64,000 nt of DNA from Saccharopolyspora rosea (lineage in GTDB: Bacteria > Actinomycetota > Actinomycetes > Mycobacteriales > Pseudonocardiaceae): assembly GCF_025643595.1 (NCBI RefSeq), contig NZ_CP102826.1, forward strand, positions 4,588,001 through 4,652,000. Reading direction: 5' to 3'. A program made the position numbers and the translations under genes. The notes under the pieces are model-generated. The model made no database searches and was not told the DNA's origin. It saw only the letters and a program-made list of their open reading frames with translations. Shown here in pieces: positions 3,154 to 36,258 of this stretch; position 1 is the stretch's first letter, and each line of letters starts with the position of its first letter.

Positions 3154-3885
3154 CTACGCGCCGGCCGAGCGGTCGTCGACGACGACCTTGACACCCACTC
3201 CGTCCACTTCGGACTGGGGCGCGGGACTTCCGGCGGGGTGGGGGATGCGGCCGTCGGTGGCCAGGCCCGCCGCGTCCAGCGCGGCCGAGCAACTGCTGAT
3301 CCGCTCGGCCAGCGTGTGCAGCGCGGTGCGGGTTTCCTGCTCGCGCTGTTCGAGTTCGGCGTGCCTGCGGTCGATCTCGGCGAGCACGCGGCAGCGCAGT
3401 TCCTCGGTCTGCGCGTCCCGCTGCTCGCAGCGCTGCTTCGTGCGCTCCAGCATGGCCTCGGCGTGCTGCTGCGCGACCGAGGTGATCCGCTTGTACTCCT
3501 GGCTGATCCGGCGCCGCAGCCGGTGTTCGCGGTGGTGCTGGGCGGCGCGCGAGGACGACTGCTCGTGCTCCAGCCGCGCCCGGCGGGTCTCCAGCTCCCC
3601 GGCCAGCTCGGCGCAGTCGGCGCGGGTCTCGGCGGCGACCCGCTCGGCCTCGGTGATCAGGTCGGCCGCTTGCTCCTGGGCGTGGTCGAGGATGGCCTCG
3701 GCGCGCTGCTCGGCGAACTCCACCGCCTCGGGATCGCGCCACGTCTCGTCGGTCGCGCGTTCCAGCGCATCCTGGAGTTCGCGGATGCGGGTTTCCAGCG
3801 CGTCCAGGTGCCCGGCCACCTGCTTGCGATCGAAACCCCGGAACCGCGTGCCGAATTCGGGCCGGGCCGGAACCACGTCGTCCAT
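3154..3885 (-). CDS. DivIVA-like coiled-coil protein
   Basis: A 243-residue, highly charged protein. Near its N-terminus it has a DivIVA-type membrane-targeting segment (FGTRFRGFDRKQVAGHLDALETRI), then a long heptad-rich coiled coil from about residue 30 to 205 with many Glu, Arg and Ala, and a short Pro-rich tail. The ATG at 3885 follows GAGGGGGATGGAG; a GTG directly before it is an alternative start. DivIVA/Wag31-like proteins bind curved membrane and organise polar growth or septation in actinobacteria. This one lacks the length and tail of Wag31, so it is a paralogue of unknown job. It stands 132 bases after the ABC ATPase gene on the same strand and could be read through from it. Confidence 0.75.
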   Translation of the reverse strand: MDDVVPARPEFGTRFRGFDRKQVAGHLDALETRIRELQDALERATDETWRDPEAVEFAEQRAEAILDHAQEQAADLITEAERVAAETRADCAELAGELETRRARLEHEQSSSRAAQHHREHRLRRRISQEYKRITSVAQQHAEAMLERTKQRCEQRDAQTEELRCRVLAEIDRRHAELEQREQETRTALHTLAERISSCSAALDAAGLATDGRIPHPAGSPAPQSEVDGVGVKVVVDDRSAGA

Positions 3886-4017
3886 CACGACTCCATCCCC
3901 CTCACCGGAGCACGTGCGCGGAAGATTCTTTCGGCGCCCCAAGCGGTTTCGCGTCGAGGGCCGACTCCGACCATCATTCGCGGGCTGCCGGGAGCGAGCG
4001 AGATCGAGTCGTGTTCA

Positions 4018-20379: not shown

Positions 20380-20757
20380 ATGTCCGAAATCCCCCGACCC
20401 CTCGGACCCGCCGAGCTGGCCGACGAGCGCGTCGAGTTCCTGCCGGCGCGGACGGTGCTGACCACCGTCTGGTTCCCCATCCACACCCCGAACGACCTCA
20501 CCGTGCTGCACCAGGTGCACCACACCCACGCGGACCCCGACACCGACGACAACATCTCCACCGGCGACGTGACCGGTGGCAACGGCGGCACCGGTGGCGG
20601 CCAGGGCGGCGGCCAGGGCGGCGGCAACGGTGGTAACGGTGGCGACGGCGGCAGCGGCGGCGACGGTGGCGACGGCGGTGACGGCGGCAACGGCATCGGC
20701 GGCGACGGCATCGGCGGCGCCGGTATCGGCGGCGACGGCGGCGGCAACATCGGCTGA
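20380..20757 (+). CDS. Gly-rich peptide E, divergent member next to the M50 gene
   Basis: A 125-residue paralogue with AAGGAG before its ATG. The leader MSEIPRPLGPAELADE and RVEFLPARTVLTT match peptide D almost exactly, but FPLHH is replaced by VWFPIHTPNDLTVLHQVHH, then an Asp/His insert (THADPDTDDN). The core is GGNGGTGGGQGGGQGGGNGG, a run of GGD units, and GGDGIGGAGIGGDG. It is on the plus strand, 124 bases upstream of the M50 protease gene and separated from it by a hairpin, so precursor and protease are probably one transcript with reduced read-through. Confidence 0.85.
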   Translation: MSEIPRPLGPAELADERVEFLPARTVLTTVWFPIHTPNDLTVLHQVHHTHADPDTDDNISTGDVTGGNGGTGGGQGGGQGGGNGGNGGDGGSGGDGGDGGDGGNGIGGDGIGGAGIGGDGGGNIG

Positions 20758-20824
20758 GGCGCCGGTGCGGCGTTCACGGCCGATCGGTGGCATGGTTCTT
20801 GTCTGACCGCCACCGCCAGACGGC

Positions 20825-20857
20825 GGGCGGCGTCTTCCCGCGGGGGAGACGCCGCCC
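20825..20857 (+). terminator. Hairpin between peptide E and the M50 protease gene
   Basis: GGGCGGCGTCT (20825-20835) and AGACGCCGCCC (20847-20857) form a perfect 11-bp stem, extendable inside by CCC/GGG. It lies between the two genes and 24 bases before the M50 start. Partial termination here would make much more peptide than protease mRNA, as is common for precursor/enzyme operons. Confidence 0.7.
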
Positions 20858-20881
20858 GTCCTTTGCGGAGATGGGGGTGTC

Positions 20882-22210
20882 ATGGTCGCTGGTCCCGAGG
20901 CGGGAACACCGCCGGCGGACGACGAGGTCGCGGACCTGACGGTGCCGGCGCTCGCGACCGGTACCGAGCTGATCGGCCAGTACCGGGGGTCGGGGCACCG
21001 CGAACCGCCGTACCTGGTGCGTCGCGCCGACGGCCAGGTCGTGCAGTTGACGCGGCTGCTGTACCTGCTGGCCGCGAGGCTCGACGGCCACAGCTCGTAC
21101 CGCCACCTGGCCGAGGTCCTCAGCGGACGGATCGAGCGCGCGATCACCCCGGGCCAGGTCTCCTTCCTCATCGAGAACCGGCTGCGGCCGGCCGGGATCG
21201 TGGCCGCCGACCCGGACGGCGGCGAGCCCGCGGGGCCCCCTCCGAAGACCCGGGACCGGTTGCTGGCGCTGCGGTTCCGCGTCGCGCTGGTGCCCGAGCA
21301 CGTCGTCGGGGTGATCGCCCGGGTGTTCCAGCCGTTGTTCTGGCCGCCGGTGGTGGTCGCCGTGCTGGCCGGTTTCGTCGCCGCCGACGTGTGGCTGGCC
21401 CGGCACGGCGGGGCCGAGCGGATCCTCGCCAGCGCGCAGGGGATCATCAGCCGCCCGGAGCAGATCCTGCTGGTGCTCGGCGTGCTCATGCTCGCCGGGA
21501 TCTTCCACGAGTGCGGGCACGTGGCGGCCTGCCGGTACGGCGGGGCGCGCCCGGGGGCGATGGGCGTGGGGATCTACCTGGTGTGGCCCGCGATGTACAG
21601 CACCGTGACCGACTCCTACCGGCTCAGCCGGGGCGGGCGGCTGCGCACCGACCTCGGCGGCGTCTACTTCAACGTGCTGGCCATGCTCGTCATGATCGCG
21701 CTGTACGCGCAGACCGGCGCCCCGTGGCTGCTCGCCGCGTTCGTGGCGTGGCAGGCCGCGACCGTCTGGCAGTTCCTGCCGTCGATCCGGCTGGACGGTT
21801 ACTACATCCTCAGCGACCTCGTCGGCGTCCCGGACCTGTTCGACCGGATGGGTCCGACGCTGCGGAGCATGCTGCCGGGACGTCCGGCGCACCCGCGCGT
21901 GCGGGAGCTCAAGCCGTGGGCGCGGCGGGTGATCGCGGTCTGGGTCGTGCTGGTGATCCCCTGCCTGGCCTACTGGCTCATCGCGTTCCTCGCGCTGGCG
22001 CCGTACGTGCTGCCCTACCTCTGGGAGGCGCTGCTGGTCCAGGGCACCGCCGTGGGGCGGTCCGCCCAGGCCGGGGACGGCGCCGCCGCGGCGGTCGGAG
22101 TGCTGCGGATGGTGCTGCTGGTGCTGCCCTGGGCGGGGGCCGCGCTGATCCTCACCAACCTGAGCCGCCGGGTGGTGCGGCTAGTCCGCGCCCGGCGCGC
22201 CCGGCGGTGA
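20882..22210 (+). CDS. M50-family intramembrane metalloprotease with PqqD/RRE-like N-terminal domain
   Basis: A 442-residue protein. Residues about 40-110 (from LVRRADGQVVQLTRLLYLLA to NRLRPAGIVA) look like a PqqD-type winged-helix, the fold that binds leader peptides in RiPP systems. The rest is a membrane protein of about seven helices with the zinc site HECGH at 209-213 and a third-ligand motif IRLDGYYIL (Asp near 305), as in site-2 proteases and YydH-like peptide proteases. It sits next to five leader-bearing Gly-rich peptides, so cleavage or export of those peptides is the likely role (inference). Its last 30 bases overlap the convergent response-regulator gene. Confidence 0.85.
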   Translation: MVAGPEAGTPPADDEVADLTVPALATGTELIGQYRGSGHREPPYLVRRADGQVVQLTRLLYLLAARLDGHSSYRHLAEVLSGRIERAITPGQVSFLIENRLRPAGIVAADPDGGEPAGPPPKTRDRLLALRFRVALVPEHVVGVIARVFQPLFWPPVVVAVLAGFVAADVWLARHGGAERILASAQGIISRPEQILLVLGVLMLAGIFHECGHVAACRYGGARPGAMGVGIYLVWPAMYSTVTDSYRLSRGGRLRTDLGGVYFNVLAMLVMIALYAQTGAPWLLAAFVAWQAATVWQFLPSIRLDGYYILSDLVGVPDLFDRMGPTLRSMLPGRPAHPRVRELKPWARRVIAVWVVLVIPCLAYWLIAFLALAPYVLPYLWEALLVQGTAVGRSAQAGDGAAAAVGVLRMVLLVLPWAGAALILTNLSRRVVRLVRARRARR

Positions 22211-32698: not shown

Positions 32699-32724
32699 GT
32701 TTCCCCGCCCCCACCGGCGGGGTA
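32699..32724 (+). promoter_or_regulatory. Candidate general-stress (SigB/SigF-type) promoter for the Pup operon
   Basis: GTTT (32699-32702) and GGGTA (32720-32724) are separated by 17 bases, close to the GTTT-N14-17-GGGTA pattern of actinobacterial SigB/SigF promoters. A 7-bp CCCCGCC/GGCGGGG repeat overlaps it, so part of the match could be a weak terminator of the M20 gene instead. It ends 41 bases before pup. Confidence 0.4.
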
Positions 32725-32764
32725 GGGCCCGGGGGACGCACAACCGATCGGCAGGAGTGCCCAC

Positions 32765-32956
32765 ATGCGCCAGGACAGGACGCAACGGCCACCGGACCAC
32801 GACGAGGACGAGCAGGGCGCACCAGGAACCGGTGGCCAGGACCGCCGGGCGAAGCTCAACGAGGACACCGAAGCCACCCTGGACGAGATCGACGACGTCC
32901 TGGAGGACAACGCTGCGGACTTCGTCCGCGCCTACGTCCAGAAGGGCGGCCAGTGA
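32765..32956 (+). CDS. pup: Prokaryotic ubiquitin-like protein Pup
   Basis: A 63-residue protein with the full Pup signature: a disordered acidic N-terminus (PPDHDEDEQGAPGTGGQ), the central segment RRAKLNEDTEATLDEIDDVLED, and the strictly conserved C-terminus NAADFVRAYVQKGGQ. Canonical Pup ends GGQ or GGE; the Gln must be deamidated by Dop before PafA links it to lysines. GGCAGGAG precedes the ATG. Unusually, dop, prcBA and pafA are not beside it; instead an ATP-grasp gene starts 6 bases later. It is either a relocated sole Pup or, more likely, a second copy with its own ligase-like partner. Confidence 0.93.
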   Translation: MRQDRTQRPPDHDEDEQGAPGTGGQDRRAKLNEDTEATLDEIDDVLEDNAADFVRAYVQKGGQ

Positions 32957-32962
32957 GGCACG

Positions 32963-34240
32963 GTGACCGGCCGGACCGCGAACGTGTTCGTGCTGGGGCT
33001 CGATGACCGCAACCTCGGGCTCCTGCGCTCGTTGCGGCACGCCCCCGAGTACCGGTTCCACCGCCTGCTGACGCGTGCGGAGCTCATGCACGGCGAGGTG
33101 GACCTGCCGCGCCTGGTGGACGCGGCGGAGCGGGAGCTGGCCGACTTCACCGGAGCGGTCGACGCGATCGTCGGCTACTGGGACTTCCCGGTCAGCTCCA
33201 TGGTTCCGCTGCTGTGCGAGCGGCGCGGGCTGCCCTCGCCCGGGCTGCGGGCGGTCGTGACGTGCGAGCACAAGTACTGGTCCCGGCTCGAACAGCAGCG
33301 GGTCACCGACGCGCACCCGGCGTTCGCGCTGGTCGACCTGGACGCCACCGGACCGCCGCCGGGAGTGGGGTTCCCGATGTGGCTCAAGCCGGTCAAGTCC
33401 TACTCCTCGGCGCTGGCGTTCCGGGTGGGCACGCCCGAGGAGTTCGACCGGGCCGTGGCGGACATCCGCGAGGGCGTCGGCGCGGTCGCGAGCGCCTTCG
33501 ACTTCCTGCTCTCGCTGGTCGACGTGCCGCCCGAGGTCGCCGAAGCGGGAGGCCGGTCCTGCCTGGCCGAGGAGGCGGTCGCGGGCAGGCAGATCACCGC
33601 CGAGGGCTACTGCCACCGGGGCGAACCGGAGGTGTACGGCCTGGTCGACTCGGTCTGCTACCCCGATTCCCCGAGCTTCCTGCGCTACCAGTACCCGTCC
33701 GCGCTGCCCGCCGGGGTCGACGAGCGGATCGGTGACATCGCCACCCGCGTGATCCGCCGGATCGGGTTGCGGGACTGCACCTTCGACATCGAGTTCTTCT
33801 GGGACGACGAGCACGACGTGCTCAACGTCCTGGAGATCAATCCCCGGCTGTCCCAGTCGCACGCCCCGCTGTTCGACTTCGTCGACGGCACCCCGCACCA
33901 CGAGTGCATGGTCCGGCTGGCGCTGGGCGAACGTCCGGACATGCCGCACCGCCGGGGTCCGCACCGGGTCGCGGCGAAGTGGTTCCTGCGGACGTTCACC
34001 GACGCGGTCGTGCGCGGCGTGCCCGCCGAGGCCGACATCGCCCGGGTCGAGCGGGAGGTGCCCGGCGCCATCGTGGACGTCGTCGCCGAGCCGGGCCGCC
34101 GCCTGTCCGACCTGCCGGGCCAGGACAGCTACAGCTACGAACTGGCCGCCGTCTACCTGGGCGGCCGCGACGAGGAGGACCTCACCGCGAAGTACCGCAG
34201 GTGCGTCGAGCTGCTGCCGTTCGACCTGGAGGCCCGCTGA
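32963..34240 (+). CDS. ATP-grasp domain protein coupled to Pup
   Basis: A 425-residue protein. The N-terminal domain (VFVLGLDDRNLGLLRSLRHA) is Rossmann-like. The ATP-grasp part has the lysine motif PMWLKPVKSYSSALAFRV, the adenine region SCLAEEAVAGRQITAEGY and the Mg-binding strand DIEFFWDDEHDVLNVLEINPR (Glu/Asn near 289-292). ATP-grasp enzymes activate a carboxylate as acyl-phosphate and join it to an amine or thiol. The GAGG ribosome site overlaps the pup stop codon, so both are translationally coupled. A ligase acting on Pup or on a small amino-acid substrate is plausible. It is unrelated in sequence to PafA (glutamine-synthetase fold). Confidence 0.85.
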   Translation: MTGRTANVFVLGLDDRNLGLLRSLRHAPEYRFHRLLTRAELMHGEVDLPRLVDAAERELADFTGAVDAIVGYWDFPVSSMVPLLCERRGLPSPGLRAVVTCEHKYWSRLEQQRVTDAHPAFALVDLDATGPPPGVGFPMWLKPVKSYSSALAFRVGTPEEFDRAVADIREGVGAVASAFDFLLSLVDVPPEVAEAGGRSCLAEEAVAGRQITAEGYCHRGEPEVYGLVDSVCYPDSPSFLRYQYPSALPAGVDERIGDIATRVIRRIGLRDCTFDIEFFWDDEHDVLNVLEINPRLSQSHAPLFDFVDGTPHHECMVRLALGERPDMPHRRGPHRVAAKWFLRTFTDAVVRGVPAEADIARVEREVPGAIVDVVAEPGRRLSDLPGQDSYSYELAAVYLGGRDEEDLTAKYRRCVELLPFDLEAR

Positions 34241-36258
34241 TGCGCACCCGCAACTCGCTGCCGCACGGCGTGAAGGAGGAGCAGCAGGTCTGGATCCCGC
34301 TCGGCGACGGCACCCGCCTGGCGGCGCGGGTGTGGCGGCCCACCTCCTCGGACACCGAACCGGTCCCGGCGATCGTCGAGTACCTCCCGTACCGCAAGCG
34401 CGACCTGACCGCGCTGCGCGACTCGATCAACCACCCCTACCTGGCCGGGCACGGGTACGGCTGCGTGCGCGTCGACCTGCGCGGCAGCGGCGACTCCGAC
34501 GGGCTGCTCACCGACGAGTACCTGGACCAGGAACTCGACGACGGCGTGGCGGTCCTGGAATGGCTGGCACGGCAGCCCTGGTGCACCGGTCGCACCGGGA
34601 TGATGGGCATCTCCTGGGGCGGTTTCAACGCGCTGCAGATCGCCGCGCGCCGCCCGCCGAGCCTCGGCGCGGTCGCGGTGCTCAGCTGCAGCGACGACCG
34701 CTACGCCGACGACGTGCACTACATGGGCGGCTGCCTGCTCAGCGACAACCTGTCGTGGGCGTCGACGATGTTCGCCTACAACACCTGTCCGCCGGACCCC
34801 GAGATCACCGGGGACGACTGGCGGGAGCGGTGGCGGCACCGGCTGGCGGGCAGCGGCCTGTGGCTGGAGACCTGGTTGCGCCACCAGCGGCGCGACGACT
34901 ACTGGCAGCACGGCTCGGTCTGCGAGGACTACCGGGACGTCGGCTGCCCGGTGCTCGCGGTCAGCGGCTGGGCGGACGGTTACTCGAACGCGGTGTTCCG
35001 CCTGATGCAGCACCTGGAGGTGCCGCGGCGCGGGCTGATCGGGCCGTGGTCGCACAAGTACCCGCACCTGGGTCGGCCGGGACCGGCGATCGGGTTCCTG
35101 CAGGAACTCGTGCGCTGGTGGGACCACTGGCTCAAGGACGTCGACAACGGGGTCATGGACGCGCCGATGCTGTGCACCTGGATGCAGGAGAGCGTGCCGC
35201 CGTCGACGGCCTACGACGAACGGCCGGGCCGGTGGGTCGGCGAGCCGTCGTGGCCCTCACCGCACGTCGAACGGGTGCGGCACCCGTTGGGCACCAACCG
35301 GATCGGCCGTGCGGACGAGCGGCCCGAGTCGCGCCCGCTGTCGGTGAAGTCGCCGCTGTCGGTCGGCCAGTTCGCGGGCAAGTGGTGCTCCTACAACGCC
35401 CCGCCCGACCTGCCCTACGACCAACGCGAGGAGGACGGCGGCTCGCTGGTGTTCAACACGGCACCGCTGACCGAGCGCTGCGAGATCCTGGGCTCACCGG
35501 TCGCGGAGATCTGCCTGGAGGCGGACCGCCCGGTGGCGATGCTCGCCGCCCGACTGTCCGATGTGGACGGCGATGGGCGGGCCACCCGGGTCACCTACGG
35601 CCTGCTCAACCTGACGCACCGCGACGGGCACGCCGAACCCCGCCCGCTGGAACCCGGCAGGCGGTACGCGGTGCGCGTGCAGCTCAACGGCGTGGCGCAG
35701 GCTTTCCCGGCCGGGCACCAGATCCGACTGGCACTGTCCACTTCGTACTGGCCGCTGGCCTGGCCACCCCCGGAACCGGTGCGCCTGACGGTGCACCCGG
35801 ACGCCAGCGCGCTGATCCTGCCGGTGCGCTCCCCGGACGTTCGGCAGGAGCCGATCACCTTCGCCGAGCCGGAGGGCACCGCCCCGGTGCGCAGCAGCCA
35901 ACTCCGCCCCGGTGACCAGCGGTGGACCGTCAGCCGGGACCTCGTCGACTACGAGTCCGCCCTGGAGGTGATCAAGGACCTGGGCGTGGTGCGCCTCGAC
36001 GACATCGATCTGGCCGTCTCCCGCCACGCCCACGAGCGCTACTCGTGGGTCGCCGACGACTTCGACTCGGTCCGCGGCGCGATCACCTGGCACATGCGCT
36101 TCAGCCGCGGCGACTGGTCGGTGCACACCGTCACCCGCACCACGCTGACGTCGACGCCCACCGACTTCGTGCTGCACGCCGAACTCGACGCCTACGAATC
36201 CGGGGAACGCGTCTACTCCCGCAACTGGAACCACACCATCCCGCGCGACCACGTGTGA
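34240..36258 (+). CDS. CocE/NonD (S15) alpha/beta-hydrolase
   Basis: A 672-residue hydrolase whose ATG overlaps the ATP-grasp stop (TGATG). Catalytic residues are visible: Ser near 124 in GISWGGFNAL, Asp near 245 in SGWADGYSNAV and His near 271 in GPWSHKYPH. The C-terminal X-Pro-dipeptidyl-peptidase beta domain (SLVFNTAPLTERCEILG to the LALSTSYWPLAWP region) is complete. An additional tail of about 100 residues (WTVSRDLVDYESALEV onward, ending YSRNWNHTIP) is not part of classical S15 enzymes. The family cleaves esters or X-Pro amides. In this operon it could reverse or follow the ATP-grasp reaction. Confidence 0.88.
   Translation: MRTRNSLPHGVKEEQQVWIPLGDGTRLAARVWRPTSSDTEPVPAIVEYLPYRKRDLTALRDSINHPYLAGHGYGCVRVDLRGSGDSDGLLTDEYLDQELDDGVAVLEWLARQPWCTGRTGMMGISWGGFNALQIAARRPPSLGAVAVLSCSDDRYADDVHYMGGCLLSDNLSWASTMFAYNTCPPDPEITGDDWRERWRHRLAGSGLWLETWLRHQRRDDYWQHGSVCEDYRDVGCPVLAVSGWADGYSNAVFRLMQHLEVPRRGLIGPWSHKYPHLGRPGPAIGFLQELVRWWDHWLKDVDNGVMDAPMLCTWMQESVPPSTAYDERPGRWVGEPSWPSPHVERVRHPLGTNRIGRADERPESRPLSVKSPLSVGQFAGKWCSYNAPPDLPYDQREEDGGSLVFNTAPLTERCEILGSPVAEICLEADRPVAMLAARLSDVDGDGRATRVTYGLLNLTHRDGHAEPRPLEPGRRYAVRVQLNGVAQAFPAGHQIRLALSTSYWPLAWPPPEPVRLTVHPDASALILPVRSPDVRQEPITFAEPEGTAPVRSSQLRPGDQRWTVSRDLVDYESALEVIKDLGVVRLDDIDLAVSRHAHERYSWVADDFDSVRGAITWHMRFSRGDWSVHTVTRTTLTSTPTDFVLHAELDAYESGERVYSRNWNHTIPRDHV

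Follow-up and report, generated by a model that had tools for sequence, protein, structure and literature searches.

Why should a gene for the protein tag Pup lie apart from the proteasome genes and lead a tightly packed unit with an ATP-grasp ligase gene and a hydrolase gene? The unit occupies positions 32699-36258 on the + strand of a 64,000-nucleotide stretch of the Saccharopolyspora rosea genome (contig NZ_CP102826.1, positions 4,588,001 to 4,652,000), which we analysed as a whole and call the window. A preliminary description took it for an alternative tagging system, in which the ATP-grasp enzyme acts on Pup and the hydrolase removes it. Our analysis suggests extra tag under stress rather than a second tagging machine: the first gene of the unit, pup2, is probably a functional Pup paralogue outside the proteasome operon and would supply tag to the ordinary Pup-proteasome system when induced by stress, sharing a transcript with a separate pair of enzymes. 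The arrangement is real, moderately surprising and regulatory, and on present evidence there is no new tagging system.

The gene pup2 (32765..32956) encodes a complete Pup of 63 residues with a C-terminal GGQ. The protein scores 69.4 bits against Pfam Pup PF05639 (curated cut-off 27), exceeds the cut-off of NCBIfam TIGR03687 and ends in KGGQ, a Pup being expected to end in Gly-Gly-Gln or Gly-Gly-Glu. The alignment with solved Pup spans its whole length and is strongest in the C-terminal half, and this full-length match rules out a decayed gene. Six bases separate the stop of pup2 from the GTG start of the ATP-grasp ligase gene (32963..34240; 425 residues; Pfam ATP-grasp_4), with the GAGG of the ribosome site overlapping the pup2 stop. 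The ATG of the S15/CocE-type hydrolase gene (34240..36258; 672 residues; Pfam Peptidase_S15 and PepX_C) in turn overlaps the TGA of the ATP-grasp gene; its product reaches 213.4 bits against NCBIfam TIGR00976 (curated cut-off 66.3), the model of the CocE/NonD hydrolases, a family with a Ser-Asp-His triad, and on inspection by eye the translation contains GISWGG. In coordinates and ribosome site alike, the unit is as the preliminary description had it.

The 6.56-Mb single-contig genome contains three pup genes, which rules out pup2 as the sole pup, a possibility that the preliminary description had raised together with a search for a second copy beside dop, prcBA and pafA. That copy exists. The canonical pup is flanked by dop and prcBA, has pafA and the gene for the proteasomal ATPase nearby and lies about 40 kb from pup2; the separation of pup2 from the proteasome genes is genuine (the gene names at the canonical locus are our reading, the ligase family being assigned by its PF03136 match). 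The two genes encode the same protein family, with the conserved C-terminal half and the GGQ end, but pup2, unlike the canonical gene, has no ligase, depupylase or proteasome gene alongside and has instead a SigF-type promoter and its own ATP-grasp and S15 genes. The third pup, at 2179439, adjoins a gene for a CBS-domain protein and is also near a gene for a protein with a right-handed beta-helix and an AAA domain (L005:6760-10128).

Multiplication of pup is a feature of the genus. Across 22 genomes of the 22-species genus there are 51 pup matches in total, and PafA/Dop (PF03136) gives exactly two matches in every genome, 44 in all. By comparison of coordinates, each genome has one pup beside a PF03136 gene, and the remaining 29 matches are extra: 27 are intact and spread over 17 of the 22 genomes, and two are partial (G025, G207) and excluded from the promoter, end-residue and tree counts. 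The 22 canonical genes reduce to 21 distinct ones once identical copies are removed. A genome has up to five intact pup genes with the PafA/Dop count unchanged; only the tag is multiplied. This excess of tag genes over PF03136 genes, together with the full-length likeness of Pup2 to solved Pup, supports a role in tag supply. A GGE end is found in 13 of the 27 intact extra genes and in one of the 21 distinct canonical genes; a Pup ending in GGE should need no deamidation by Dop. In three extra genes the encoded end is NGQ, neither GGQ nor GGE (L088:16694-16885, L094:8350-8538 and L113:6690-6878), two of them adjoining a WhiB gene. As a further observation, a partial pup match in L086 (about 3830-3975), flanked by a WhiB gene and an S15 gene, lacks the C-terminal end and looks decayed.

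Extra copies also occur outside the genus. Among the 189 such genomes in our family sample of 200, 177 have one pup match, eight have two (one of these weak) and four have none. By eye, three of the extra genes in other genera adjoin the same small island gene (L179, L181, L182), and another, L183 in G120, adjoins a CBS-domain-like gene, as the third pup of S. rosea does.

The pup genes appear to be under purifying selection, weak for pup2, with an uncorrected ratio of nonsynonymous to synonymous differences (pN/pS) of 0.18-0.83 across 18 chosen pup pairs. In a Pup tree of 63 columns, the canonical genes form a clade (support 100/99), 12 of 13 extra genes of a second class defined below form another (96/99), and pup2 has no firm placement.

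The promoter bears on the role of pup2. The element GTTT-N17-GGGTA at 32699..32724 (+ strand), whose first base lies 66 bases 5′ of the pup2 ATG, matches exactly the SigF consensus GTTT-N14-19-GGGTA given in the available text of PMC4694148, and similar SigB-type promoters are described in the available text of PMC8346170. This is the single match in the window, where 0.13 are expected by chance; by sequence, pup2 has a SigF/SigB-consensus promoter. With a looser pattern, G[AGT]TT-N15-18-GGGTA within 150 bases upstream of pup genes, a class-free count finds the element at 12 of the 27 intact extra genes and at none of the 21 distinct canonical genes. Divided by surroundings, the extra genes carry it in 12 of 14 cases in one class, which we call the SigB class, and in none of 13 in the second, although the class lists, drawn by neighbourhood, were made after the first promoter scan had been viewed, and the second class takes in four loci without a USP neighbour in the gene map (L005, L098, L099, L104). 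Shuffled sequences give a mean of 0.02 for the 14 genes, 0.01 for the 13 and 0.12 for the 21. Among 576 other genes called in the stretches analysed, 31 have the element within 200 bases upstream. It also stands 35-38 bases upstream of five of the 15 ATP-grasp genes of the genus, and the S. rosea genome encodes one SigB/F/G-family sigma factor above the curated cut-off. The exact consensus, the 12 of 27 against 0 of 21, the five ATP-grasp genes and the sigma factor gene all support stress-induced tag supply. The promoter named in the preliminary description is therefore there to the letter and recurs in type on other extra pup genes; the stress induction that it also proposed may be inferred from these sequences.

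The surroundings of the extra pup genes point the same way. Ten genes of these islands, compared with Pfam, include WhiB, HATPase_c_2, STAS, hemerythrin, Usp, DUF2795 (twice) and DUF1206, with two lacking a match, and the WhiB, STAS, HATPase_c_2, hemerythrin and Usp neighbours lend support to a stress role. In addition, a DosR-like box (GGGAC-N4-GTCCC, at most two mismatches) lies upstream of nine of the 13 second-class genes (shuffles: mean 3.93, largest 8), two of the 14 SigB-class genes and none of the 21 canonical genes (shuffle mean 6.73), the sequences having been inspected before the scan. Such a palindrome is at most suggestive of a second stress regulon for pup. At eight loci (L097, L098, L099, L102, L105, L106, L108 and L110) it is positioned about 109-128 bases before the pup start.

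From these data we infer the following scheme. Stress would activate the SigF/SigB-type promoter, and newly made Pup2 would join the common Pup pool. From there it would take the usual route: deamidation of its terminal Gln by the ordinary Dop, attachment to proteins by the ordinary PafA and delivery to the ordinary proteasome. In general, PafA ligates Pup to lysines and Mpa/ARC recognises it, and Pup2 resembles solved Pup chains in sequence. The available text of PMC9556782 describes free Pup as highly unstable and the pupylome as dependent on recycling by Dop, which supports the scheme. The ATP-grasp and S15 enzymes would form a separate, more widespread pair that in this species is able to share the pup2 promoter and that perhaps makes and breaks a small peptide or amide.

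Several observations weigh against this scheme. The element is absent from 15 of the 27 extra pup genes, from all 13 S15 genes of the genus and, within 200 bases upstream, from all seven extra pup genes read in other genera (an eighth, L185, is not recognised by the sequence pattern). Compared with four other pup genes, pup2 has a pN/pS of 0.53-0.71, only weakly below 1. Seen by eye, the near surroundings of the unit, an M20 amidohydrolase gene and probable inositol genes, are no stress island.

The distribution of the pair shows what the ATP-grasp gene keeps company with. Matches to the ATP-grasp family occur at E 1e-10 in 88 of 200 family genomes, some of them weak; at E 1e-60, 14 of 296 phylum genomes have one, and at E 1e-40, 14 of 22 genus genomes. 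One member of the family has an ATP-grasp protein identical to that of Prauserella rugosa, in line with the family being Pseudonocardiaceae. At E 1e-150, every one of the 14 ATP-grasp genomes of the genus has the S15 hydrolase, as does one of the eight others (that one at 50% identity). Around 63 ATP-grasp loci, we scanned flanks of mostly about 1.5 kb, up to 5 kb for seven loci, and sought pup by a sequence pattern. An S15 gene is seen at 43 loci (10 of 20 within the genus, 33 of 43 outside) and pup at two, both counts being lower bounds because the flanks are short, some contigs end early and the pup search is pattern-based. Two genomes of another genus, G253 and G460 (99 and 96% complete), have the ATP-grasp and S15 genes as direct neighbours but give no Pup or PafA/Dop match. 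G368 (90% complete) likewise lacks Pup and PafA/Dop matches; its ATP-grasp protein is about 34% identical, and no S15 gene is seen. G474 has no Pup match either, but is uninformative on this point because it is 64% complete and contains a ligase fragment. Pup is present in the other nine of the 13 genomes checked. The steady partner of the ATP-grasp gene is the S15 hydrolase, not Pup, and an obligate Pup/ATP-grasp system is ruled out by the two pup genes at 63 loci and by the pair kept without Pup in G253 and G460. In one genome (G071), two ATP-grasp genes of the same family stand in tandem (L035:1504-4068).

These results bear on the tagging system proposed in the preliminary description, taken here broadly as a second tagging or carrier system: the ATP-grasp enzyme would activate Pup2 or extend it, and the hydrolase would take it off again. 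Its appeal lies in the remaining linkage: the gap from pup to the ATP-grasp gene is six bases in the window and 14 in G145, pup lies about 5.7-6.1 kb from the ATP-grasp gene in G186, G161 and G207 and 12 kb from it in G091, and a SigB-class pup is found in 11 of the 14 ATP-grasp genomes against two of the eight others (Fisher p 0.026, uncorrected for kinship). Yet the pair lives without pup, as the preliminary description had considered it might, and PafA/Dop stays at two per genome throughout the genus. The best solved match of the ATP-grasp family profile is a ligase for free L-amino acids (3vot, BL00235; positions 62-317, E 4e-11, a distant match). Moreover, the ATP-grasp proteins with pup directly upstream, those of the window and G145, do not group in the ATP-grasp tree, which rules out one special pup-linked clade; the pup-first order arose twice or was often lost. 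With the label "pup within 7 kb", the tree needs three changes, and three of 500 shuffles are as low, near-copies contributing to this result. We therefore regard a dedicated Pup-tagging pair as quite improbable. A narrower version, in which an older pair became coupled to Pup2 in the genus, the ATP-grasp enzyme extending the Pup2 C-terminus by an amino acid or a peptide that the hydrolase takes off again, would give a second, stress-only tag or carrier use beside PafA/Dop; we think it highly improbable.

At the other extreme, pup2 and the pair may adjoin by chance, without functional or regulatory meaning. The preliminary description had suggested looking for the same three-gene order elsewhere, and we see it only here, with most ATP-grasp loci lacking pup; both facts favour chance. 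However, pup also stands directly upstream of the ATP-grasp gene in G145, three more genomes have an extra pup gene at a distance of up to about 6.1 kb, in G091 another one is just 55 bases away from the S15 gene, and the promoter type is common to extra pup and ATP-grasp genes, so we consider mere chance unlikely. It is also conceivable that Pup2 is made with the pair to pupylate and remove both enzymes, limiting their lifetime after stress. The tight spacing and the overlapping stop and start would suit such a role, but there is no sign of selectivity and the pair usually has no pup at hand, and we give this idea very little credence. A shared stress regulon and the clustering of stress genes may account for the linkage without new chemistry, but a functional tie may exist as well, and the pair may have a side role on Pup. 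Stress-induced tag supply is thus the reading that we prefer.

Part of this was known. The available text of PMC3511204 (2012) reports that some organisms have two pup genes, one for PupQ and one for PupE, and describes a duplication of parts of the Pup system in Saccharopolyspora erythraea. Those genomes resemble ours in having more than one pup; beyond what that text gives, we find up to five intact copies, an unchanged PafA/Dop count and a promoter class common to 12 of 27 extra copies. For stress promoters on extra pup genes we found no report. A 2021 review of pupylation in stress (PMC8223512) makes no mention of pup paralogues, duplication, second copies or SigF, PMC3610266 mentions neither pup nor the proteasome, and, in a search that most subscription journals fell outside, no paper title concerned pup copies with stress promoters or the action of an ATP-grasp enzyme on Pup.

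Pup is usually regarded as a single gene of the proteasome locus. Eukaryotes have stress-induced ubiquitin genes, such as yeast UBI4. The likeness is a separate stress gene for the tag, as proposed for pup2, although the proteins are unrelated and the induction of pup2 is read from sequence only. If the proposal is true, a genus with multiplied tag genes, many of them under general-stress promoters, would offer a bacterial equivalent of these genes, and it would become testable whether the supply of tag, and not that of ligase or protease, limits protein turnover under stress. Another parallel is the amino-group carrier system LysW/LysX, in which a small protein tag is encoded with an ATP-grasp ligase; it differs in that the ATP-grasp family here also occurs in genomes without Pup.

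In the window, the M20 amidohydrolase gene lies upstream of pup2, and the probable inositol catabolism cluster lies 3′ of the unit on the opposite strand. All gene maps come from a simple in-house caller, which overlooks some genes; in L085 the entire ATP-grasp gene escapes it. Elsewhere in the window (20380-22210, by eye), a gene for a small protein whose tail is long and rich in glycine lies directly 5′ of a membrane-metalloprotease-like gene, and the two may encode a peptide and its processing enzyme.

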